Part shown: positions 1 through 12,068 of the stretch, in pieces
Layout: each line of letters opens with the position of its first letter
Numbering within the stretch: position 1 is the first letter of the stretch
Source of the DNA: Halocynthiibacter namhaensis
GTDB taxonomy: Bacteria; Pseudomonadota; Alphaproteobacteria; Rhodobacterales; Rhodobacteraceae
Assembly: GCF_000812685.1 (NCBI RefSeq)
Contig: NZ_JWIF01000063.1
Location: 1 to 64,000 of the forward strand
Length of the DNA stretch: 64,000 bases
Direction of reading: 5' to 3'
Made by a program: the position numbers and the translations under genes
The notes under the pieces: model-generated
The model's database searches: none
Seen by the model: only the letters and a program-made list of their open reading frames with translations
Told to the model about the DNA's origin: nothing

Positions 1-216
1 GGAACGGCATAGGTGCCGCTCGGTCCTTTTCGCAATTTCAGGCCCAAACTTCTGCACCCATCGAAAAACTGTTGAACGATCTAGGGCGATACCACGCTCT
101 GCCAAAAGGTCAGTAACATCATGACATGAAAGTGGATAACGGCAATACCAACGCACCGCCAAAAGAATGATGCCCTGCGGAAAACGATGGCGCTTGAAGG
201 GATTTCGACGTTTCAT
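1..216 (-). CDS. IS6-family transposase, N-terminal part (partial)
   Basis: Reverse-strand frame starting at an ATG at 214-216 and running off the left edge. Its 72 visible codons are identical to the start of the complete transposase at 4995. The visible part covers the N-terminal helix-turn-helix region (SCHDVTDLLAERGIALD, then STVFRWVQKFGPEIAKR) that recognises the element ends; the DDE catalytic residues lie beyond the window. Nothing in the visible part suggests inactivation. Confidence 0.85.
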   Translation of the reverse strand, partial: MKRRNPFKRHRFPQGIILLAVRWYCRYPLSCHDVTDLLAERGIALDRSTVFRWVQKFGPEIAKRTERHLCRS

Positions 217-270
217 CTCACACCTCAAAATACAAAGTTTGACCAAACAAGTCAGTTAATGCAACAGCCC
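1..270 (-). mobile_element. IS6/IS26-family insertion sequence, partial (cut by left window edge)
   Basis: These 270 bases are, by eye, an exact reverse complement of 4941-5210, the beginning of the complete IS6-family element further right. The terminal inverted repeat lies at 255-270 and reads, outward to inward, GGGCTGTTGCATTAAC. The rest of the element lies outside the window. With the right copy it bounds a 4.67 kb accessory segment in inverted orientation. Confidence 0.9.
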
Positions 271-369
271 GTTTGGGTGGCTCCGCGCGAGTTCTTGAAA
301 ATCGCTCCTACAATTCACCTTTCAGTTCGTCCGTTAACGCATCGGTAAGCGTAAAATTTCCTCCTAGGG

Positions 370-1473
370 CTACCTTTCCGCTTTTGTTTTATCATTTGCA
401 TATTCTTTTCTACGAAGACCGCCTTGTGGGCGAAACCCCATCCACGCGTTTGGATCATCCATAAAGGCGTCAAATTTGCTAGAGCAATGTACATACTTGT
501 TGCGGAGCCTTTTATGCACAACGAGATCAACAGGTTCCCCCGCCATTAATGCCTCTTTTGCCAGAACAATATCCGGATCATCCATGGGAAGATCGTAGTC
601 TGGACCCGAGAGCATGTCTGAAAATGGGAAGCCATCAATTTCCCGTGCTTGTTGGTGCATGTAGTGTAGCGGAATACGAGACAGTCTATTACTCAGCTCC
701 CGTGTCATTATGTATGCGATTTCAAATGAGTAATCTATTACTGGTGGCATTGTCGGAATAATAAATCGCTCAATACTCGATTCTTTAACTGATATTTGCG
801 ACTGTGTGGCCCACCCTTCATCCAACATTTTGGTGACTACGGGAGGTAAATCCTTATTGGCAGCCAGATCTAACTCCATTTGCGTTTTTTGACGCGTAAG
901 TAGAGTTTCAGCTCCTGTACGACTTCGGGAAATACCTGAGTATTTATACAATAATCGTTCTTCAGGCCCCGTGTGATACCCCCCGCCTACATCTGTATGG
1001 GCTCCAGGGAAAACCTTCTGAATACCTCCGTCTGGCGTATTGCAGTTCAGCCTGAAATTTGTTCTGAATTCATCATTTTCATCGGCCACGAGGTGGACAA
1101 TCTTTTCCGCGGAGACACCATCTTCTAGATGGACATTTACGTCATAATTGTACGAATTGGTTGCAAGGCCAATCGCGGCTACTGTGTCAAAGATACCAAC
1201 AAATCTGATTTTAATATTCCGTCCTTCGGGCACCTCAGCTTCATGCACTGTGGGCGAATTAAACAAAATATCCCACATGCTATATTCTGAATATGTCACG
1301 CTCCCTTTATTGAAACAGTTCACAAAATATCTGGCGGCTGCAGCACCTCGACTAAATCCAAAGACATCCAAGATTATTTCTTTTGGTTCTGCATCAGGTG
1401 AGAGTTCCCTCACTAATGTCCCGATCTCCAAGCAAGCCTTGTAAACTGTATTTTCAACGCCTGCCGGCCCCAT
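370..1473 (-). CDS. Tle1-like (DUF2235) phospholipase/alpha-beta hydrolase, N-terminally truncated
   Basis: The protein carries the T6SS lipase Tle1/DUF2235 signature: nucleophile elbow GFSRGAAAAR near residue 40, an acidic residue in VGIFDTVAAIG, and the histidine in FPGAHTDVGGGYH, giving a plausible Ser-Asp-His triad. The C-terminus (LSRIPLHYMHQQA, then YVHCSSKF) also fits the family. Family members in T6SS clusters are antibacterial phospholipases. The usual N-terminal FFDGT motif is absent. The frame stays open upstream to 1587 and encodes a further family motif (YQPGIGT, then FWGKLFGMGPAG), but no ATG, GTG or TTG precedes the Met at 1473. That extension overlaps the end of the upstream DUF4123 gene in another frame. 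Most likely a deletion removed about 100 N-terminal residues, so it may be a remnant. Confidence 0.6.
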   Translation of the reverse strand: MGPAGVENTVYKACLEIGTLVRELSPDAEPKEIILDVFGFSRGAAAARYFVNCFNKGSVTYSEYSMWDILFNSPTVHEAEVPEGRNIKIRFVGIFDTVAAIGLATNSYNYDVNVHLEDGVSAEKIVHLVADENDEFRTNFRLNCNTPDGGIQKVFPGAHTDVGGGYHTGPEERLLYKYSGISRSRTGAETLLTRQKTQMELDLAANKDLPPVVTKMLDEGWATQSQISVKESSIERFIIPTMPPVIDYSFEIAYIMTRELSNRLSRIPLHYMHQQAREIDGFPFSDMLSGPDYDLPMDDPDIVLAKEALMAGEPVDLVVHKRLRNKYVHCSSKFDAFMDDPNAWMGFRPQGGLRRKEYANDKTKAER

Positions 1474-2927
1474 GCCGAAAAGTTTTCCCCAGAATTTGTC
1501 ATCATCTCCCGAAATTGTTCCAATGCCAGGTTGGTACGTCGCCCTGTACCTAGTCTTGGGTCTCCGAATTTTTGATTTGATGGGAACTCAGAAACACATA
1601 TTTCAAATAGCGTGCCCTCTGGATCTTTCCTTTCAAATCCCTCTCCGAGCATGACATCTAAGTAGGAAAAAGTATAAATGTGATCCATTCGGGTAAACCC
1701 AAAGTTGCGGAATCGAGCTGCGCATTCTCTCACGATTTCAAGAGATTCTTGCATGGAAAGGCTTGGTTTTGAGGCTGATACCGCTTCAAAAACATTCGAG
1801 GCGATCACTTCTAAGTCACAATTATACTTGGCTCCGTTCAGCGCCTGATATTCTTCCTCTGTCAGAATGAAATTTCGAGATGTAGCTTTCCTACGGTCAC
1901 ATTCGAATATGGCACGGGTACATGTCGGTCCATGCATATCGTTTGACATTACACAGATCGAATGCACGGAACCCCTTCCCGAATATAGCACTTCCCAGCA
2001 CCAAACTGTATTCAGATTTTCACGTATTTTTTCAAAATATGCCCCAAGGGTTGCACCCTCCCAGAATCTGAATAGGAACCACTTTCCCTTTTCATTTTTG
2101 ATGCGTGTGAACTTTCTGAAGTGTCTCCATATATCATCGAAATTCGCACGTGATCTGATGTATATACCGGGATCGAGATCCCACATATTTGAAGCCATAC
2201 CCGCACTGGTGAATATATCGCGGGTGAAGGCGCTGTTCTCTTCCAGTTCGACCAAATAGGGCGCGACATTCTTAAGCTTATCAGCCGTCTCACCTTTGAA
2301 CAGGCACCGAAATTTCAAACCAGAGTTGGCTAGAAACAATGGCAAATGCAAGACCTTCGCCGCGTCTAGGATGGCGTAGGTTTTCATGGAGGGGACGTTG
2401 GCAACGCTTCCATGTTGTTCAACCTCTACTTCCGTCGGCGCGACAATCCCAAACAGCGGTTCTCTTAGCACTTCGGGAACTGATTTTTTTGGATGCGCAC
2501 CGAATTGATTGTCCAAAGGGGCAAAGCCTCTGATTTCTTTAATGGCTAGGTAGCATTCTGTTTCAATGCTACCGTTTTGCGCTTTCAGCGTAGACAATTG
2601 GACCAAATGCCCGGGATGCACTGCCCGCGCAAGTGGTCCAACGTTCTGCTGATGTCCATGTCTCCCGATATATTCTGGAGCAGCAAGGCATTCTTCCACC
2701 CAGAGGGTTCTAAACCCGATCCCCTCCAGGTGTGCGGCATTTCTTATGGCAGTCATGTGATCATTCACATTTTGCTCATAGATCATCGTTGGCCGTATTT
2801 TGGATACGTTTTGATCAAGCGCCACATGTACATTCCTGAACCGTGTTTTGCGCGTCACCTCGTTCCAATATTCTTGATCACCAGTTTTCAGCGTTTTGCC
2901 AGCCGTGTTGATTGATGCATATGTCAT
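1413..2927 (-). CDS. DUF4123-domain protein, probable T6SS effector adaptor
   Basis: A 504-residue protein. Residues about 180-300 resemble DUF4123 (YAILDAAKVLHLPLFLANSG, then APYLVELEENSAFTRDI and a W.FRFWEG segment); such proteins (Tap/TEC) load effectors onto VgrG spikes. The C-terminal third has the helical pattern usual after DUF4123. The first 175 residues are not recognised. The start is the ATG at 2925-2927, preceded by GAAGGGA. It lies directly upstream of the Tle1-like gene on the same strand and overlaps it by 61 bp (about 175 bp if the open Tle1 frame is counted), consistent with an adaptor-effector pair. No VgrG, Hcp, PAAR or immunity gene is visible. The domain assignment is by eye and moderate. 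Confidence 0.6.
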   Translation of the reverse strand: MTYASINTAGKTLKTGDQEYWNEVTRKTRFRNVHVALDQNVSKIRPTMIYEQNVNDHMTAIRNAAHLEGIGFRTLWVEECLAAPEYIGRHGHQQNVGPLARAVHPGHLVQLSTLKAQNGSIETECYLAIKEIRGFAPLDNQFGAHPKKSVPEVLREPLFGIVAPTEVEVEQHGSVANVPSMKTYAILDAAKVLHLPLFLANSGLKFRCLFKGETADKLKNVAPYLVELEENSAFTRDIFTSAGMASNMWDLDPGIYIRSRANFDDIWRHFRKFTRIKNEKGKWFLFRFWEGATLGAYFEKIRENLNTVWCWEVLYSGRGSVHSICVMSNDMHGPTCTRAIFECDRRKATSRNFILTEEEYQALNGAKYNCDLEVIASNVFEAVSASKPSLSMQESLEIVRECAARFRNFGFTRMDHIYTFSYLDVMLGEGFERKDPEGTLFEICVSEFPSNQKFGDPRLGTGRRTNLALEQFREMMTNSGENFSAWGRQALKIQFTRLAWRSGH

Positions 2928-3200
2928 TGGTTTTCCCTTCGTGACATGTTGATTTTTGGTCTATGTCCGTGCATCCCGCTAAAAAATGAAGGCGGGTCGG
3001 GGATGCCGAAGGCACCAGCTCTGCTGGGCGGAAAAGTTTTGGAATGACTAAGATCAACACAATCGGAACCCGCAAAAATCTGCGCAGCTTTTCAACCCAG
3101 CGATAGGTTTCCGAAAAGTTTTTCACTCCTTGACGCGGGTTTATTTTGGAGCCAATCCGGAGGATATAGTTCCAAATATCAGCAGAGCATTCCCGATCAG

Positions 3201-3330
3201 CCACCGGAGACGCACGACCGGGTTAGAGATTTTGGGAGACAGGATGTAACGCAGGAAACCAGATTCATCTGGGTGACGCAGTGCAATCGTGGATTTCTAA
3301 ATCTCTAACCCGAACTCGCGTGGCCTCGGT
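3201..3330. repeat. Long imperfect inverted repeat with perfect 14-bp core
   Basis: CGGGTTAGAGATTT at 3219-3232 is repeated exactly in inverse at 3299-3312, 66 bp apart. The similarity extends outward: reading toward the core, both arms begin GCCACCG and continue with a related GC-rich stretch, giving arms of about 32-36 bp. The 538 bp between the DUF4123 gene (start 2927) and the SOS-controlled gene (start 3466) holds no other gene I can support. The repeat could be ends of a small non-autonomous element, a recombination site, or an RNA hairpin; there is no T-tract, so a simple terminator is unlikely. Confidence 0.7.
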
Positions 3331-3411
3331 GGCGGGTACTGGATACAAGACGCGCGACTGCGCCACGGGCCAAAGGCACGTTCTATAACACCGCGCGCAT
3401 TGGCAGACACG

Positions 3412-3444
3412 TTGACATTTACCTAAAATGTTCTTATTTTGTTC
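3412..3444 (+). promoter_or_regulatory. Sigma-70 promoter overlapped by an alphaproteobacterial SOS (LexA) box
   Basis: TTGACA at 3412-3417 is followed after 17 bp by TATTTT at 3435-3440. Overlapping this -10 is GTTC (3430-3433), seven bases, GTTC (3441-3444), which is the LexA-binding consensus of alphaproteobacteria. A repressor here would block RNA polymerase directly. The gene starts 22 bp downstream at 3466. Confidence 0.8.
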
Positions 3445-3465
3445 TTATAGATTTTGGAGGATACT

Positions 3466-3831
3466 ATGCAAGCTGCCGCTCATATAATTCGCGAAGATAG
3501 CCCCGCACCATACGGCGGGCCCAACCCGATCTTGTTGGCCCCGACACAAAAGCAAATGGCCTATGCACGTAAGATTGCATCCAGCCGCGCGATCACACTG
3601 CCTTGGGACGTTCAGCAATCGCGCATCGCGCTTTCTCGTTGGATTGATCGCAATTTGCACACCTCGGCAAAAAGCAATCATTCATCCGATCTGCCGACAT
3701 CGAAACAAGTTGCCTTTGCCGAACGTGTCGCCACTATCAAGCGCACAAATGTTCCCCGTGAGTGCTTTAAAAGCCGCCAACTCATGAGCAGATGGATCAA
3801 CGAAAATAAGCCCGCACATCGCCACGCATGA
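3466..3831 (+). CDS. Small two-repeat protein, predicted SOS-regulated
   Basis: A 121-residue protein of unknown function. The start is the ATG at 3466, with GGAGG (about 3456-3460) just upstream. It contains two copies of a helical module of about 37 residues: PTQKQMAYARKIASSRAITLP then SRWIDRN near residues 27-65, and PTSKQVAFAERVATIKRTNVP then SRWINEN near residues 77-115. Similar T.KQ..FA..IA modules occur as C-terminal or stand-alone units in DNA-associated proteins such as some topoisomerases; that link is from memory. The SOS promoter in front suggests a role in the DNA-damage response or in mobile-element control. It sits within the IS6-bounded islet. Confidence 0.75.
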   Translation: MQAAAHIIREDSPAPYGGPNPILLAPTQKQMAYARKIASSRAITLPWDVQQSRIALSRWIDRNLHTSAKSNHSSDLPTSKQVAFAERVATIKRTNVPRECFKSRQLMSRWINENKPAHRHA

Positions 3832-3910
3832 CGCCTTTAGGTGTTCTTAGCGAAAGCGCCAGTCTGGTCCAATTTCGGCGTAGTCGGGATTTGGTCAGAC
3901 ACCTAATAAT

Positions 3911-3945
3911 ACCTTCAAATCAACCAATACACTTAATTTGAAGGT
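3911..3945. other. 10-bp perfect hairpin in the gap before the lipoprotein gene
   Basis: ACCTTCAAAT (3911-3920) and ATTTGAAGGT (3936-3945) can pair around a 15-base loop. No T-run follows, so it is not a classical terminator. It may act at the RNA level or be an operator dyad for the lipoprotein gene starting at 4024. Confidence 0.4.
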
Positions 3946-4023
3946 TAAGCGGCCTGTCCGCTTTGTTCCTTGATACAATGCGTTACCATCGATAGTGTGG
4001 ATTAAGATGGGGACGGACATAAT

Positions 4024-4350
4024 ATGAATATAACCAAATTTACGATATGTGGTTTGATAGCTTTACTTGCAGGATGTACAAACCCAATAAATCATGTTCC
4101 AATTGAACAACCTAGGCTGTACTCGCCACCTGCCGCATCGGGTCTGCTCTCTAATAAAACTTTTTTATCTCCGAATACAATTTGTGAACCCATAGGGGAA
4201 AACGAATTAACTGTTGATTATCTTGATCATACGGCGACTTTAATCGGATGCCCAGTACACGAAAGAATGGCAATTCAAGACCAACTAGATGCAGGTGCTG
4301 AGAAGCTAGATGTCGTTGGTCAGTGGCTGTTGCTTTCATTACCCGACTAA
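4024..4350 (+). CDS. Putative outer-membrane or periplasmic lipoprotein
   Basis: A 108-residue protein starting MNITKFTICGLIALLAGC, a lipoprotein signal peptide with lipobox LLAGC, so Cys18 would be the lipidated N-terminus of the mature protein. The mature part of about 90 residues has no domain I recognise; it contains two more cysteines (in TICEP and IGCPV) that could form a disulphide. Base composition is AT-rich compared with the chromosomal genes to the right, in keeping with the accessory islet. The ribosome-binding site is weak. Confidence 0.6.
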   Translation: MNITKFTICGLIALLAGCTNPINHVPIEQPRLYSPPAASGLLSNKTFLSPNTICEPIGENELTVDYLDHTATLIGCPVHERMAIQDQLDAGAEKLDVVGQWLLLSLPD

Positions 4351-4356
4351 TAATTC

Positions 4357-4386
4357 AAAAGGGCCGGATTAACTCCAGCCCCTTTT
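4357..4386. terminator. Bidirectional rho-independent terminator
   Basis: An AAAAGGG arm pairs with CCCTTTTT across a short GC-rich stem. It lies between the convergent lipoprotein gene and the ParB-like gene fragment, with A/T runs on both sides allowing use in both directions. Confidence 0.6.
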
Positions 4387-4405
4387 TCAATTGTCATTTC
4401 ACAGA

Positions 4406-4940
4406 TCAAAAGCAATTTGGCACCCAGCTATCAATAACCGCGCCCTGCTCTTTCGTGACCCCCGCTGCGTCACGATAATCTTGATCACTGATCAGCTTGT
4501 GCATGATGATGTTTTTCTCGCCCTTTTTCGATTTGGCAAACCCTTTGAAAATATCGCTGGTTTCATCCAACTCAAGCCAGCCCAAAAATATCACATCAAG
4601 CTGTGCTGATTTTAGACGTTTGAAACAGTTCTCAACCGTTGGCGTCCAGATTGCCCGAATGTCGGCTCCGGTCTCGGCTTCAATACGCGCCATGAAATTA
4701 CCGCGTGAGGTTTTTAGGGACTGCGCAAATGCTTCTGTGATCTGAGTATTGCGGTTCTTTTTGCCAAGTTCACGGAATGCTTTGAATGCTTCGCTTTGAT
4801 CCTCAAGCGCAAGTTCCCCAATAGCGTCATTTTCAATTTCCTGCGTCTCCGTCAGTTCGCCACCGATCCGGCCATCAAGCGTGAACCCATCGTCAATCTC
4901 TGGCTTGTTTTGCTCGTGATCAAAGCGCAGTGATAAAAGG
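4406..4940 (-). pseudogene. C-terminal fragment of a ParB-like partition protein, cut by IS6 insertion
   Basis: Reading the reverse strand inward from the IS end at 4941, one frame stays open for about 178 codons to the stop at 4406. It passes through KTSRGNFMARIEAETGADIR, a WTPTVENCFKR segment and a VIDSWVP tail, a pattern I associate with the C-terminal half of ParB/Spo0J-like proteins on Rhodobacteraceae plasmids. The N-terminal nuclease-like domain and start codon are missing and do not reappear right of the IS, where the nnrS region begins within about 40 bp. An IS-mediated deletion is therefore likely. An internal ATG at 4693 could start a 95-residue product, but a functional one is doubtful. 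Confidence 0.6.
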
Positions 4941-5756
4941 GGGCTGTTGCATTAACTGACTTGTTTGGTCAAACTTTGTATTTTGAGGTGTGAGATGAAA
5001 CGTCGAAATCCCTTCAAGCGCCATCGTTTTCCGCAGGGCATCATTCTTTTGGCGGTGCGTTGGTATTGCCGTTATCCACTTTCATGTCATGATGTTACTG
5101 ACCTTTTGGCAGAGCGTGGTATCGCCCTAGATCGTTCAACAGTTTTTCGATGGGTGCAGAAGTTTGGGCCTGAAATTGCGAAAAGGACCGAGCGGCACCT
5201 ATGCCGTTCCAGTTTGAATTGGCACGTTGATGAAACCTATCTCCGAGTAGGTGGGCAATGGCGATATCTGTGGCGCGCCGTCGATGCGAATGGTCAATTG
5301 GTTGATTTTCGTTTAACCGCAAGACGTGATGCCAAGGCCGCGAAATCCTTTCTAAGTAAGGCGATTGAGCGTGTTAGATTGCACCGACCTGTTTCAATCA
5401 TCACGGATAAAGCACCCAGCTATCGTAAAGTAATCCGCGATATAAATTTCCGGTATGATCCGCATTTCGACGGTATTAAGCACATCGATAAAAAGTGGCG
5501 AAACAATAGGATCGAAAGCGATCACGCCGCTTTAAAACGGTTGTTGGGTTACAGGCAAAGCTTCAGATCATTACGAACTGCCAAGGCCACTTTGCAAGGA
5601 ATTGAAACCATTCGAACGATCAAAAACCAACACATCCATTACCCGCGCCCCAGCATTCTGGGTGAGATGGAATTCGTGAAAAATCTGTCCATTATCAGCG
5701 CCTGATCGTGGAAGGATCCCGTTCTTCATAAGCCCGTGAAGTTAATGCAACAGTCC
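4941..5756 (+). mobile_element. Complete IS6/IS26-family insertion sequence (816 bp)
   Basis: The terminal inverted repeats are GGGCTGTTGCATTAAC at 4941-4956 and its inverse with one mismatch at 5741-5756. A single transposase gene fills the element, as is normal for IS6. The 8-bp flanks (4933-4940 and 5757-5764) do not match, so there is no simple target duplication; this fits later deletion or inversion rather than a fresh insertion. It is inverted relative to the copy at 1-270. Confidence 0.9.
4995..5705 (+). CDS. IS6/IS26-family transposase
   Basis: A 236-residue transposase, close to the 234 residues of the IS26 protein. The catalytic DDE triad is visible: Asp in WHVDETYLRV, Asp in IITDKAPSYRK, and Glu in NNRIESDHAALKR. 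The N-terminus has the family helix-turn-helix (SCHDVTDLLAERG). I start at ATG 4995 because this matches known family N-termini (MKRRNPFKRHRFP); an in-frame upstream codon at 4965 would add ten residues. No frameshift is seen, so it is probably active. IS6 elements move by replicative cointegration and commonly cause adjacent deletions and inversions. Confidence 0.93.
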   Translation: MKRRNPFKRHRFPQGIILLAVRWYCRYPLSCHDVTDLLAERGIALDRSTVFRWVQKFGPEIAKRTERHLCRSSLNWHVDETYLRVGGQWRYLWRAVDANGQLVDFRLTARRDAKAAKSFLSKAIERVRLHRPVSIITDKAPSYRKVIRDINFRYDPHFDGIKHIDKKWRNNRIESDHAALKRLLGYRQSFRSLRTAKATLQGIETIRTIKNQHIHYPRPSILGEMEFVKNLSIISA

Positions 5757-5798
5757 CCTGAGGCGTGGGTTCTGGGTGTTGCCTGAACCCGCTTCGGT

Positions 5799-6995
5799 CT
5801 ATTCCTTTGCTTTTGAAAACAAGACGGGTGCGTAAAGCACAGCAAATCCTGCGAATGCCATGATCCATGCGGTCGCTGCGATATGCAATAGGAATTCGGG
5901 CGTTGGGAAGGCCGCAATCACGCGAACGACCGAGGCGATCAAAATCATCCCGTAGATGAAAACCTCACGCCAAGTTGTGTGCAGCTCGCGCCCAGAATGT
6001 CCCAGGCTTGCGCGCGTCATAACGGCCAACATCATGCCGCCCATCGCGCCGCTAAGCCATGCGTGAAGCCCTGCAAGTGATGGCACAGTTTCGGGCGAAA
6101 TCATAGATAGGCCTTGCAGTAAAAAGCCAAGCGGAACAAAGCTATAAGCAATATGAAGGGCCATTACGATAGGTACAGATGCGGTCTTCTGGCCTTGCCA
6201 GCGGGACATGCGAATGATGTGCAGAATACCCGCAGTGAGAAATAAGAAACCCGTGATCAGGTTCGGCATGGCAACCACCCAGGTCAGCAAGGACACTGCC
6301 GAAATGCCAACTGTGACCTTGTCAAGCCCATTGAACATAATGGGCAGGTTTTCGGCGCTGTGTTTGATCAGCCAATTGCGTGTGAAGGCCGGGATAATCC
6401 GCCCCCCGATGAGGCTGAGGAGCAGAATAATGGCACCAACGGACAGCTTTGCGCCAGGGCTGACAGAGGCATATCCACCTGCCAGCGAAATCACATCAAA
6501 GAAGACCTGGCCCATCAAGAACAACAGGATGATCGCCAGAACGGGCATGTTCTTTTGATTGCCGGATTTTAGTAAAATTCGCGCGGAGATGATTAACAGC
6601 GCAAGCAAAAATGCGATGTCCAGAAGGATCACCACCACCAGGGGCAGTCCGCCTGACAGCCACACCGCAACCCGCCCCAAAGCCCAAAGCACGGCCAAAA
6701 GCGCAAGGGGGGTGCCTGTGATCATCTTGGTGTCGGTCCAATTGGGGATGGCGGTCAACAGAAATCCCCCCAGCACCGCCGGGGCAAATCCGTATAATAT
6801 GCTGTGCATGTGCCAGTCTTGCGGCAGCATTGCCCCGGATGGTAGCTCGGTTCCAGCTGCCCAAAAGCTGATCCAGGCGATCATCACATAAGCGGCCCAC
6901 AGTGCGGCCATGAAAAACATGATCCGAAAACCACCTTGCAAGATTGTCGGTGTGGTTTTGATAGGGGCTGTCTTGGGGGATTTGGGCGTGGTCAT
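5799..6995 (-). CDS. nnrS: NnrS family protein
   Basis: A 398-residue polytopic membrane protein with roughly 12 hydrophobic segments. The N-terminus (GGFRIMFFMAALWAAY) and WHMHSILYGFAPAVLGGFLL are characteristic of NnrS, a haem- and copper-containing inner-membrane protein that protects against nitric oxide in denitrifiers. AGGAG precedes the ATG at 6995. It is divergent from pheS. Its 3' end lies 42 bp from the right end of the IS; a hairpin (GGGTTC/GAACCC) lies between them, so the element landed just beyond the gene's end. No nitrite or nitric oxide reductase genes are in the window. Confidence 0.88.
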   Translation of the reverse strand: MTTPKSPKTAPIKTTPTILQGGFRIMFFMAALWAAYVMIAWISFWAAGTELPSGAMLPQDWHMHSILYGFAPAVLGGFLLTAIPNWTDTKMITGTPLALLAVLWALGRVAVWLSGGLPLVVVILLDIAFLLALLIISARILLKSGNQKNMPVLAIILLFLMGQVFFDVISLAGGYASVSPGAKLSVGAIILLLSLIGGRIIPAFTRNWLIKHSAENLPIMFNGLDKVTVGISAVSLLTWVVAMPNLITGFLFLTAGILHIIRMSRWQGQKTASVPIVMALHIAYSFVPLGFLLQGLSMISPETVPSLAGLHAWLSGAMGGMMLAVMTRASLGHSGRELHTTWREVFIYGMILIASVVRVIAAFPTPEFLLHIAATAWIMAFAGFAVLYAPVLFSKAKE

Positions 6996-7139
6996 TGGGT
7001 GCTCCTTGCGGCTGGGCCTATCTGAACCGCCGGGCAGGGGAAGTGCAATATGATAATCCGTCGCGCTTATATCCTTCGGCGCGCTTGCATTTCGGCGTTC
7101 ATGTGGTAGCAGAACAGCAACAAATTTCGGGAGCGCCAG

Positions 7140-8213
7140 ATGGACGATCTAAGACAAAAATACCTGACAGCCATTTCTGCCGCGTCTGATGAAGGCGGTC
7201 TTGAAGAGCTGCGCCTGCAAGCCGTCGGCAAAAAAGGCGAAGTCAGCCTAAAAATGCGTGAGCTGGGCAAGATGACTCCGGAAGAACGCCAGGTCTTTGG
7301 TCCCAAGCTGAATGCGCTGAAAGACGAAATCAATTCAGCCCTTGCCGCCAAGAAAGAAGCCCTTGGCGATGCCGCTTTGGAAGAACGTCTGAATTCCGAA
7401 TGGCTTGACGTGACCCTGCCGGGGCGCACGCGTGGTCAAGGCACCATTCACCCGATCAGCCAGGTGTCTGAGGAAATCGCAGCGATTTTTGCTGATCTTG
7501 GTTTTTCTGTCGCAGAAGGTCCGCAGATCGAAAACGATTGGTACAACTTTGATGCGCTCAACATCCCACCACACCACCCGGCGCGCCAGGAATTTGACAC
7601 CTTCTATATGCACCGCGATAAAGATGACGAACGCGCGCCACATGTTTTGCGCACCCATACGTCCCCCGTGCAAATCCGTGAGATGGAAAAAACCGGCGCC
7701 CCGATCCGGGTGATTGCGCCGGGTCGTGTGTATCGTTCCGACTACGACCAAACCCACACGCCAATGTTCCACCAGATCGAGGGCATGGCGATTGGCAAAG
7801 ACATTTCCATGGCGAACCTGAAATGGGTGCTGGAAGAATTCTTCGCGGCCTTCTTTGGCATCGAGGGCATTAAAACCCGTTTCCGCGCGTCGCATTTCCC
7901 GTTTACTGAACCTTCGGCCGAGGTCGACATTCAGTGTTCTTGGGTCGATGGACAGCTGCGCATTGGCGAAGGTGACGGCTGGATGGAAGTGCTGGGCTCC
8001 GGCATGATGCACCCGAAAGTTCTGCAAGCCGGTGGCGTTGATCCCGACGAATACCAAGGCTTTGCCTTCGGTATGGGCATCGACCGCCTCGCTATGCTGA
8101 AATACGGCATCCCCGACCTGCGCGCCTTCTTTGACAGCGACCTGCGCTGGCTGAAACACTACGGCTTCAACCCACTGGCGCAACCAAACCTGCATGGCGG
8201 CGTGAGCGGATGA
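7140..8213 (+). CDS. pheS: Phenylalanyl-tRNA synthetase alpha subunit
   Basis: A 357-residue class II synthetase subunit that charges tRNA-Phe as an alpha2-beta2 enzyme with PheT. The N-terminal coiled coil (residues 1-90) precedes the catalytic core, with [14 protein letters not shown], motif 2 ([12 protein letters not shown]) and motif 3 ([17 protein letters not shown]). GGGAG lies 6 bases before the ATG. The stop overlaps the next gene's start as ATGA. The usual partner pheT does not follow directly: three ORFs intervene before 9672. I see no obvious Phe-rich leader peptide or attenuator in front. Confidence 0.97.
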
Positions 8214-8750: not shown

Positions 8751-9185
8751 ATGACCGAAACTGAAAACGACGACTTCGAAGATCTTCAAAAGACCTATCC
8801 TGGCGCGGGCTCTTACCGTTTTGGCGGGTCTCAGGCGCAGTGTGAAAAGCTGCTGAAGCTTGTGCGCACGGGGAAGAAAACTGCGAATTGCGAGGCTTTG
8901 CGTGAATTTGCCCAGGAACCAGATGCCCTGCCGAAACCTGGCCGTTGCGATATCGCCACGCTGTGGGATGGCACGCCAACCCTGATCACCCGCACGGTCA
9001 GCGTGAACAACATTCGTTTTTGTGACGTGACTGAAGAACAGGCGCGCCAAGAAAGCGATCTGCCGTTGGACGATTGGCGCATGATGCAGCAAAAACATTT
9101 CAGTAAATCTGGCGGCTTTGACCCTGAAATGCTGTTGGTGTTTGAGGTGTTTGAAGTTGTCGAAGATCTGCGCGAACGCGTGTAG
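8751..9185 (+). CDS. ASCH-domain protein
   Basis: A 144-residue protein with the ASCH fold pattern: an N-terminal YRFGGSQAQCEKLLKLVRTG followed by GKKTANCEALREF, the central RCDIATLWDGTPTLITRT strand, and a C-terminal MLLVFEVFEVVEDL. ASCH proteins bind or process RNA or nucleosides (PUA-like; some hydrolyse N4-acetylcytidine). I start at ATG 8751, with GTGAAAG upstream; an in-frame TTG at 8733 is possible. It lies 19 bp after the membrane-protein gene, inside the interrupted pheS-pheT unit. Confidence 0.8.
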   Translation: MTETENDDFEDLQKTYPGAGSYRFGGSQAQCEKLLKLVRTGKKTANCEALREFAQEPDALPKPGRCDIATLWDGTPTLITRTVSVNNIRFCDVTEEQARQESDLPLDDWRMMQQKHFSKSGGFDPEMLLVFEVFEVVEDLRERV

Positions 9186-9671: not shown

Positions 9672-12068
9672 GTGAAATTCACTTTGTCCTGGCTGAAAAC
9701 ACACCTCGATACCGAGGCTTCTGTTGATGAAATCCTTTACGCTCTGACTGATCTTGGTCTTGAAGTGGAAGAGGTGTCCAATCCCGTTGACCGCCTGAAG
9801 GATTTCACTTTGGGGTATGTCGAAACCGCTGAAAAACATCCGGATGCGGATCGTTTGAATGTCTGTCAGGTGAAGACCGACGAAGGCATGAAACAGATCA
9901 TCTGTGGTGCGCCAAACGCACGCGCTGGCATCACCGTTGTTGTTGCGAAACCTGGCGTTTACGTGCCTGGCATCGACACAACCATTCAGATCGGTAAGAT
10001 CCGCGGCATCGAAAGTCACGGCATGATGGCCTCTGAACGTGAGATGGAATTATCCGAAGAACATGACGGCATTATTGAGTTGCCTTCCGGCAATGTTGGT
10101 GATCGTTTCGTCGATTGGCTGTCTGAAAATGATCCTGCCAAAGTTGACGTGATGATCGACATCGCCATCACGCCAAACCGTCCCGACGCCCTTGGTATCC
10201 GTGGCATCGCGCGTGACCTTGCGACCCGTGGTTTGGGTGTGTTGAAACCCGCCCCGACGGCCAATGTTGAAGGCACCTTCAAAGCGCCGTTTAACATCAC
10301 GATTGATGCGGATACCGCTGATGGTTGCCCTGTTTTCATGGGTCGTTTGATCAAAGGCGTGAAAAACGGGCCAAGCCCTGAATGGCTGCAACGCCAACTG
10401 AAAGCCATCGGGTTGCGCCCGATTTCGGCTTTGGTGGATGTGACCAACTTTTTCACCTATGATCAGAACCGTCCTTTGCACGTGTTTGACGCGGATAAAG
10501 TGCAAGGTGACCTGCGCATTCACCGCGCCAATGGCGGCGAAACCCTGGTTGCGCTGGATGAAAAAGAATACACAATGCGCGAAGGTATGGTCGTGATTTC
10601 CGATGACAATGGCGTGGAAAGCGTTGCTGGCATCATGGGTGGTTTGGCGTCCGGGTGTACGGACGACACGACCAATGTGATATTGGAAGCGGCCTTCTGG
10701 GATACCATCCAAATCGCGAAAACTGGGCGTGCGCTGAAGATCAATTCTGACGCGCGTTACCGCAATGAACGTGGCATTGATCCGGCGTTTAACGCCCCCG
10801 CGATGGAACTTGCGACCCAGATGATCATCGACCTTTGTGGGGGAGAAGCCTCTGAGGTTGTGATCGCGGGCGAAGTACCCGACGTGGCGCGTGCCTATAA
10901 GCTGGACACCGATCGCGTTCAAAGCCTTGTTGGTATGGAAATTTCCCCTGAAACCCAACGTAAGACCCTGACAGACCTTGGTTTTGTCATGGAAGGCGAT
11001 ATGGCCCATGTGCCAAGTTGGCGCCCTGATGTCTTGGGGTCTGCGGATCTTGTGGAAGAAGTCGCACGGGTTGCGTCCCTGACCAAACTGCAAGGCAAAC
11101 CTATGACACGTGAGAACGTGGGTGTGCCAAAACCGATCCTGACGGCCATGCAGAAACGCGAAGGCATGGCGCGGCGCACAATCGCCACGCTGGGCTATAA
11201 TGAATGCGTGACCTACAGCTTCATTGACCAGCCAACTGCTGAATTGTTTGAGGGTGGCGCGGATGCGACCAAACTCGACAACCCGATCTCATCTGAAATG
11301 AGTCACATGCGCCCGGATCTGCTTCCTGGCCTTCTGCAAGCTGCCAATCGCAACCAAGCGCGCGGTTTCGCGGATATGGCTTTGTTCGAAGTTGGTCCTG
11401 CCTTCCATGGTGGTGAACCCGAAGAACAGCACTTGCAAGCCGTAGGCATTTTGATCGGTCACACGGGACCAAAAGACGTGCATGGTGAACGTCGTGCTGT
11501 TGATCTCTATGATGCCAAAGCCGACGCCGAAGCCGTGCTGTCCGCGATTGGCGCCCCCGCCAAAGCCCAGGTTCTGCGCAGCGCGCAATCTTGGTGGCAC
11601 CCTGGTCGTCACGGTAAAATCTGCCTTGGCCCGAAGAAGGTTCTCGCGACCTTTGGTGAAGTTCACCCGAAAATCCTTGCGAAAATGGGCGTCAAAGGCC
11701 CAGCCGTTGCTTTCACAGTTCTGCTGGAAGCCGCCCCTTTCGCCAAGAAAAAATCATCTACCCGTGACGCGTTGAAGATCTCTGATCTGCAAGCCGTTGA
11801 ACGTGATTTCGCCTTTGTGGTGGATGCAGGTGTTGAGGCGCTGAGTATCGTGAATGCGGCGACTGGCTCAGACAAAGCACTGATTGAAAGCGTGCGTGTA
11901 TTTGACGAATTCATTGGTGGGTCTTTGGGGGATGACAAGAAATCCATCGCAATCACAGTGCGTCTTCAGCCCGGCGAAAAGACCCTGACCGAGAAAGAAA
12001 TCGAGGCGGTTTCTGAAAAGGTCGTGGCGAAAGTCGCGAAAGCTACGGGCGGCATTCTGCGAAGCTAA
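9672..12068 (+). CDS. pheT: Phenylalanyl-tRNA synthetase beta subunit
   Basis: A 798-residue beta subunit of normal bacterial length. In order: N-terminal module (MKFTLSWLKTHLD), EMAP-like tRNA-binding domain (VETAEKHPDADRLNVCQV, about 40-150), B3/4 editing domain (about 215-390), B5 DNA-binding-like domain, the inactive synthetase-like core (about 480-690), and the C-terminal ferredoxin-fold anticodon-binding domain ending TGGILRS. It forms the alpha2-beta2 enzyme with PheS. It has its own 250-bp upstream gap and so probably its own promoter, unlike the usual pheST operon. Confidence 0.97.
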   Translation: MKFTLSWLKTHLDTEASVDEILYALTDLGLEVEEVSNPVDRLKDFTLGYVETAEKHPDADRLNVCQVKTDEGMKQIICGAPNARAGITVVVAKPGVYVPGIDTTIQIGKIRGIESHGMMASEREMELSEEHDGIIELPSGNVGDRFVDWLSENDPAKVDVMIDIAITPNRPDALGIRGIARDLATRGLGVLKPAPTANVEGTFKAPFNITIDADTADGCPVFMGRLIKGVKNGPSPEWLQRQLKAIGLRPISALVDVTNFFTYDQNRPLHVFDADKVQGDLRIHRANGGETLVALDEKEYTMREGMVVISDDNGVESVAGIMGGLASGCTDDTTNVILEAAFWDTIQIAKTGRALKINSDARYRNERGIDPAFNAPAMELATQMIIDLCGGEASEVVIAGEVPDVARAYKLDTDRVQSLVGMEISPETQRKTLTDLGFVMEGDMAHVPSWRPDVLGSADLVEEVARVASLTKLQGKPMTRENVGVPKPILTAMQKREGMARRTIATLGYNECVTYSFIDQPTAELFEGGADATKLDNPISSEMSHMRPDLLPGLLQAANRNQARGFADMALFEVGPAFHGGEPEEQHLQAVGILIGHTGPKDVHGERRAVDLYDAKADAEAVLSAIGAPAKAQVLRSAQSWWHPGRHGKICLGPKKVLATFGEVHPKILAKMGVKGPAVAFTVLLEAAPFAKKKSSTRDALKISDLQAVERDFAFVVDAGVEALSIVNAATGSDKALIESVRVFDEFIGGSLGDDKKSIAITVRLQPGEKTLTEKEIEAVSEKVVAKVAKATGGILRS

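Follow-up and report, generated by a model that had tools for sequence, protein, structure and literature searches.

A small two-module protein related to type IA topoisomerase tails and its predicted LexA control in Rhodobacteraceae

According to section 7 of PMC3323433, the LexA regulon of alphaproteobacteria comprises lexA, recA, uvrA, imuA-imuB-dnaE2 and other genes, and the text of that section, leaving aside Figure 4 with its entries for Paracoccus denitrificans and Rhodobacter sphaeroides, does not name among them the gene described here. The same article offers a precedent for an SOS-controlled topoisomerase III, namely the topB promoter of Vibrio parahaemolyticus, which was shifted by purified LexA. 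Plasmids that steady prophages are described in PMC9044938. Here, a gene preceded by a LexA box was analyzed in a stretch of 64,000 nucleotides from Halocynthiibacter namhaensis (contig NZ_JWIF01000063.1), referred to as the window, together with its relatives in other genomes; loci fetched for the comparison carry numbers beginning with L. No published account of such a protein was found by title or beginning of the abstract within a partial coverage of the literature. On balance, we favour the reading that its product is an accessory protein that LexA represses and DNA damage induces, that probably binds DNA, and that corresponds to a topoisomerase tail standing on its own; as such, it would belong to the SOS regulon of Rhodobacteraceae.

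The gene, its promoter and the predicted LexA operator

The two-module gene was found as a single copy in a search of the host genome, and its ATG is preceded by a GGAGG ribosome site at 3456-3460 (Table 1). The preliminary description had noted a promoter TTGACA-N17-TATTTT overlapped by a perfect GTTC-N7-GTTC box 22 bp before the gene: both motifs were found in place, the -10 element of the promoter falling inside the box, and the close spacing to the ATG holds, although the gap measures 21 bp. In the family as a whole, the promoter consensus is TTGATT-N17-TATATT with the LexA box occupying the whole 17-bp spacer, and the TTGACA/TATTTT pair of the window is a variant located 10 bp upstream of the family consensus position.

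Table 1. Positions of the promoter, operator, coding and mobile-element features in the window.
Feature	Position	Strand	Basis
TTGACA-N17-TATTTT promoter, sigma-70-like	3412..3440	+	Sequence; -35 at 3412-3417, -10 at 3435-3440
Predicted LexA operator GTTCTTATTTTGTTC, perfect GTTC-N7-GTTC	3430..3444	+	Sequence and conservation in relatives
Small basic two-module protein, 121 aa	3466..3831	+	ORF; ATG 3466, stop ends 3831; relatives
Module 1	3541..3657	+	Residues 26-64; profile match, shuffle test and AF2 helices
Module 2, closest to a topoisomerase tail module	3694..3810	+	Residues 77-115; profile match and AF2
Diverged copy of conjugative-plasmid non-coding element, candidate oriT relic	2993..3174	.	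DNA similarity to plasmids
IS with IS240-type transposase, right islet border	4938..5759	+	DDE_Tnp_IS240 E 1.9e-48; terminal inverted repeats 4938-4957 / 5740-5759
Partial second copy of same IS, left islet border	1..273	-	1-270 repeats 4941-5210 in inverted orientation, 100% identity

The single box of the window was rejected as evidence of SOS control: GTTC-N7-GTTC occurs three times in the window as compared to 1.95 expected, and its 123 genome-wide occurrences (51+72) are fewer than the 187 (107+80) of the reversed control pattern. As a lone box is thus not enriched, the conservation of the operator across relatives was taken as evidence instead. The loci counted were those fetched, which are mostly best matches rather than all homologues listed in the two genome draws described below; they made up 117 rows and 105 distinct proteins, from which three truncated ones were excluded (L096 and L100, with a box, and L101, without), leaving 102 full-length relatives for which 100 bp or more of upstream sequence was available. 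A perfect box lies within 200 bp upstream of 96 of these 102 genes, as compared to a mean of 0.28 and a maximum of 2 in 50 rounds of dinucleotide shuffling of the same upstream regions, and to a single box among the 1022 further ORFs of these loci. Since one cluster at 80% identity, the largest, holds 38 of the 102 proteins, the count was also made per cluster, and a boxed member was present in 53 out of 56 clusters. Inspection by eye of the six unboxed genes showed a box on the opposite strand in L110, a single mismatch from the perfect box in each of L006 and L119, a lost 5' end in L089 and L113, and no box at all in L033 of Octadecabacter arcticus. The boxed relatives include PDEN_RS25350 on plasmid 1 of Paracoccus denitrificans PD1222. 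In a separate observation on L033, the gene at 10447-11796, annotated as 'type VI secretion protein ImpB', was identified by Pfam as a Y-family polymerase (IMS, PF00817), and the label is an annotation mix-up.

The host itself possesses lexA and recA, with two overlapping boxes of the same type upstream of the former and one upstream of the latter. The SOS control claimed in the preliminary description is strongly supported by the operator kept among the relatives, which is of the type of this clade and sits in the promoter, and by the matching box upstream of lexA and recA in the host; judged from these sequences, the two-module gene is very probably under LexA control.

The duplicated module and its kinship to topoisomerase tails

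The preliminary description had further recognized a duplicated helical module in the 121-residue product, and this was confirmed. Modules 1 and 2 of the window protein are 37% identical over 41 residues (BLOSUM62 score 80), and the mean score between the two modules across 56 family representatives is 64, far above the 10.6 ± 4.8 (maximum 37) obtained when module 2 was shuffled. The profile by which the two modules were placed contains both of them, so its E-values are no test of them. AlphaFold modelled the protein as two three-helix modules with a mean pLDDT of 83.9 and a pTM of 0.47, the helices of module 1 covering residues 28-40, 47-51 and 53-69; module 2 modelled alone reached a pLDDT of 94.9 and a pTM of 0.70. 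The mutual arrangement of the two modules in the model is uncertain, in keeping with the pTM of 0.47. Strong basicity is a feature of the family: in 102 proteins, each taken from where the family match begins up to the stop codon, the pI ranges from 9.4 to 11.6 with a median of 10.4 and the net charge is at least +5.

The remote-homology and structure check proposed in the preliminary description was carried out and left the module with neither a Pfam nor a PDB match. The window protein had no match better than E 0.07 in Pfam, NCBIfam, PHROGs or PADLOC, and 0 PADLOC families of anti-phage defence were matched at E up to 1. The Pfam family TfoX_N was matched at E up to 1 by 7 of 19 family members (best E 0.0068) as well as by the tail of the topoisomerase L038 (E 0.0041), in both cases under the curated cut-off. 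Among solved structures, the best E-values by sequence were 0.37 for the whole profile and 1.5 for the module profile, and comparison by fold gave no E below 2.6 and Z values of at most 3.2; the module alone had no Foldseek match. Among HeH/SAP/LEM-like folds, residues 118-157 of T4 endonuclease VII gave a weak match with a Z of 2.2 over 38 residues.

Kinship to enzymes emerged from searches in both directions. With the small protein as query, tblastn led to type IA topoisomerases of Agrobacterium, Variovorax and Campylobacter plasmids, and the tail of the Agrobacterium topoisomerase as query led, among the best 50 of 240 matches, to topoisomerases of Campylobacter, Xanthomonas and Phaeobacter as well as to small proteins. 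Since module-profile scores are circular for the rows of its own alignment (the window protein, L038, L103 and others), we relied on a profile built from small proteins only and on the module shuffle test. The small-protein-only profile matched the fetched loci L103 (E 4.3e-26), L038 (E 1.3e-20), L106 (E 8.1e-9) and L102 (E 1.6e-5). The module profile, of which L163 and L164 are not rows, matched these two as single sequences with domain E-values of 7.4e-19 and 7e-14. Pfam confirmed Toprim and Topoisom_bac domains in L038, L102, L103, L106, L163 and L164. These six topoisomerases carry one to three modules of about 40 residues in their C-terminal region, covered by no Pfam model in the six scanned, and the last module ends at most 17 residues from the C-terminus in five of them, the exception being L102, in which a DUF5710 domain follows the module. 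L103 comes from another member of the Rhodobacteraceae, the family of the host, and its last module shares on average 64% identity, and at most 77%, with module 2 of the 56 representatives. The reciprocal matches and the identity of L103 to module 2 lead us to read the small protein as a free, doubled topoisomerase tail; on the strength of its homology to the C-terminal repeats of type IA topoisomerases, that is what it is.

Further carriers of single modules were found in L105 (1486-3021), which encodes a protein of 512 aa, and in L125 (153 aa), both without a Pfam match, while L126-L128 and L146 resemble topoisomerase tails by eye; L148 and L151 look like chance matches and were rejected as carriers. 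Separately, a gene annotated as hypothetical in the Dolichospermum phage Dfl-JY45 (L164, 1153-3297) was found to encode a type IA topoisomerase whose C-terminus bears a single tail module.

Proposed function, distribution and the plasmid alternative

We propose that LexA, sitting on the box within the promoter, would keep the two-module gene off. Upon DNA damage, RecA on single-stranded DNA would bring about LexA cleavage and the release of the near-consensus promoter, and the cell would then make a small, soluble, strongly basic protein, as suggested by the operator, the promoter and the composition. The modules may hold single-stranded or branched DNA or dock on a replication or repair partner, as they may do in topoisomerases, which are enzymes acting on single-stranded DNA, so that the free protein might act in trans at recombination intermediates or at forks that have suffered damage; plasmid-borne copies might also act during plasmid entry or recombination. 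By analogy, given its charge and the company in which tail modules occur, the protein more likely than not binds nucleic acid, and its direct partnership with a topoisomerase seems rather unlikely. Among the three roles guessed in the preliminary description, that of a DNA-damage effector fits best.

The gene is scattered across its clade. At E 0.001, a match was present in 92 of 394 sampled Rhodobacteraceae genomes and in 94 of 292 genomes of a second, overlapping draw over the order; the draws share genomes, and a few matches in both are fragments or topoisomerases. The 302 family genomes without a match, among them the one same-genus genome, indicate that the gene is dispensable to the clade. 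Two or more matches occur in 17 of the 92 positive genomes, some of them being fragments or topoisomerases. Class-wide, 7 of 385 genomes gave a match, of which three belong to the host's family; none of the remaining four is a small protein with two modules. Likely remnants were recognized by eye in L107, L145 and L150, whose genomes contain no intact copy. The family is under purifying selection, as judged by a median dN/dS of 0.13 over 940 non-independent pairs, and the tree shows the window protein as a divergent family member, on a long branch whose placement is uncertain. No tblastn match to the small protein was found in phage records at E 1, and none of 33 pattern stretches in viral contigs was confirmed.

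The gene occurs on chromosomes and plasmids alike, and its presence on the latter is the starting point for the first alternative, a plasmid or mobile-element function in which the protein would be an SOS-timed aid to the establishment, spread or maintenance of incoming single-stranded DNA. Leading-region genes such as psiB, ssb and ardA provide the comparison here, in role and not in sequence. We regard this alternative as unlikely, and it may coexist with the main SOS reading. In its favour, a plasmid-type member used as query matched 150 plasmid records at E 1e-5, of which 76 are typed conjugative, 62 non-mobilizable and 12 mobilizable; Pseudosulfitobacter accounts for 73 of the 150, and the set includes at least one topoisomerase. 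Another plasmid search returned 187 records, including topoisomerases of Campylobacter and others. Plasmids of Hyphomicrobiales are represented by Martelella pMM259, which carries the gene with a perfect box, and Pseudorhizobium NT26_p1, which carries a gene fragment with its 5' end missing.

Comparison of 65 loci, with neighbour gene names assigned by eye, revealed no neighbour or operon partner common to all, so that the gene works alone as far as context tells. Three settings recur nonetheless. On plasmids, the gene lies divergent from a large methyltransferase-helicase gene in 8 loci; 12 loci have shared neighbours; and 6 loci share one other neighbour. Also in line with the plasmid alternative, radC, DUF932 and toxin-antitoxin genes were annotated near the gene in four plasmid stretches, three of which additionally contain ssb. 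Against it, 11 of the 12 shared-neighbour loci fall into one clade of 13 sampled proteins (support 99/98) and 7 of the 12 lie on contigs over 1 Mb, which makes chromosomal inheritance and a host role likely there; moreover, two plasmid copies sit among metabolic genes. As for the linkage to topoisomerases raised in the preliminary description, the connection that emerged is homology to the C-terminal modules of these enzymes, found by tblastn and profile.

In the window, the gene lies within what the preliminary description called a mobile islet, which is supported by the inverted IS copies at both ends and by the comparison with the single same-genus genome, in which the gene is absent: that genome matches window positions 5767-8209 and 8769-9178 and has no DNA match to 1-5766. 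The left IS copy is cut by the contig end, window position 1 being base 1 of the contig, and pheS, pheT and clpB adjoin the islet and place it on the chromosome. Among the other contents of the islet, a DUF4123 gene stands beside a Tle1-like phospholipase gene (370-2927), and the two are likely an effector pair of type VI secretion; ORFs 4024-4350 (108 aa, lipoprotein-like by eye) and 4406-4693 (95 aa) matched no credible Pfam or PADLOC family. An inverted repeat, GGGTTAGAGATTT ... AAATCTCTAACCC, is located at 3220-3311, and the single-strand DNA fold of 3200-3330 has a z-score of -3.95.

Between the DUF4123 gene and the two-module gene, 0.3 kb upstream of the ATG, the islet contains a diverged copy of a plasmid element with 69% identity over about 180 bp to one plasmid and 84% over 64 bp to others. 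The full element of about 320 bp (L160, 3860-4180) is non-coding and recurs in 162 plasmid records, with an identity of at least 80% in 161; 149 of the 162 are typed conjugative, and mostly Roseobacter-group genera appear in the counts listed. It lies upstream of a DUF2493 gene in three plasmid records, with a relaxase gene following in the one from Phaeobacter, and we infer that this conserved element is a candidate transfer origin. Its proximity to the gene, at 0.3 kb in the window and about 1.3 kb in L115, speaks for the plasmid alternative, whereas distances of about 20 and 39 kb between gene and element on the plasmids NZ_CP139700 and NZ_CP086874 speak against it. On plasmid pow42 of Octadecabacter sp. 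SW4 (L161, 4001-5258), the same element adjoins a gene for an SRAP (SOS-associated peptidase) protein with a perfect LexA box upstream, an arrangement that also fits the plasmid alternative; farther along the plasmid there is a gene for an error-prone DNA polymerase.

A bolder form of the preferred SOS reading would have a topoisomerase tail cut loose, doubled and put under LexA as a portable SOS effector whose trans-acting targets are branched DNA or single-stranded DNA that enters the cell; carried on chromosomes and conjugative plasmids of Rhodobacteraceae, sometimes beside a transfer origin, it would let a plasmid that enters a damaged or SOS-induced cell bring a repair or anti-damage factor of its own. 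We consider this version doubtful. If it were true, the tail module would be a general, unnamed DNA-handling domain of mobile-element topoisomerases.

Further alternatives and comparison with described systems

A second alternative is that the protein is an SOS-induced inhibitor or modulator of a topoisomerase, in which the free tail would compete with the DNA- or partner-binding tail of the enzyme and slow it during repair. GyrI/SbmC, an SOS-induced gyrase modulator, is the known case, and the possible likeness is that of a small SOS protein acting on DNA topology. The protein consists of a duplicated enzyme tail only, with no Pfam match to the catalytic domains Toprim and Topoisom_bac, and a free binding domain is the classic design of a competitor. 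Against this, as well as against the preferred SOS reading, stands the host genome, in which one PF01131 topoisomerase (a frame of 898 aa resembling TopA by eye) was the sole type IA topoisomerase found; the module is absent from its C-terminus, and thus the search gave no partner with a tail. In addition, the two-module protein has no Pfam match to a known modulator or to any other family, unlike GyrI/SbmC, and the shared role would be an analogy only. We hold this alternative to be quite improbable.

It appears very unlikely that the protein is an SOS checkpoint factor delaying division, a local counterpart of SulA, SidA or YneA. Its small size, lineage-specific occurrence, lack of an operon partner and promoter overlapped by the operator would suit such a factor. 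SOS division inhibitors of the SidA/YneA type are membrane peptides, whereas the maximal 19-residue hydropathy is 0.19 for the window protein and 1.01 for the family, no transmembrane segment or membrane-like stretch was found across the 102 family proteins, and these are strongly basic. The kinship to tails of DNA-handling enzymes, the presence of the gene on many plasmids and the two or more matches in some of the positive genomes, fragments and topoisomerases included, argue in the same direction. Finally, a local transcriptional regulator of the islet, which a small basic helical protein adjoining cargo genes might suggest and which the preliminary description had also considered, is extremely improbable and unsupported because the gene recurs in unrelated contexts, a whole-islet DNA search matched plasmids solely at the non-coding element (best 10 of 147 matches), and the window protein has no match to an HTH family of Pfam.

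If the reading of a LexA-controlled, DNA-binding accessory protein is right, a recurrent, conserved and apparently undescribed gene would be added to the DNA-damage response of a major bacterial group, and there would be a first lead to the tail module that type IA topoisomerases of mobile elements carry. DNA damage, the tails of topoisomerases and conjugative plasmids would be linked by one short gene, in a manner testable in laboratory strains such as Paracoccus denitrificans PD1222.

Compared with known systems, the gene shares with the alphaproteobacterial LexA regulon the GTTC-N7-GTTC operator found at host recA and lexA, whereas its two-module product carries no known repair domain. The best match among viral models was protein A0A5B9N7N5 of Aeromonas phage 4L372XY (Foldseek E 9.4e-5), which is 25% identical over 95 columns to the two-module model but is an uncharacterised phage protein of 183 aa with a TM-score of only 0.38. 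With the plasmid and phage type IA topoisomerases (TopB-like), the protein has in common the same module of about 40 residues, present there in one to three copies, and differs in that its modules are free of Toprim and topoisomerase domains. Furthermore, the small-protein gene is preceded by a LexA box, in contrast to the four tail-bearing topoisomerase genes checked (L038, L103, L163 and L164), which have none within 250 bp upstream.
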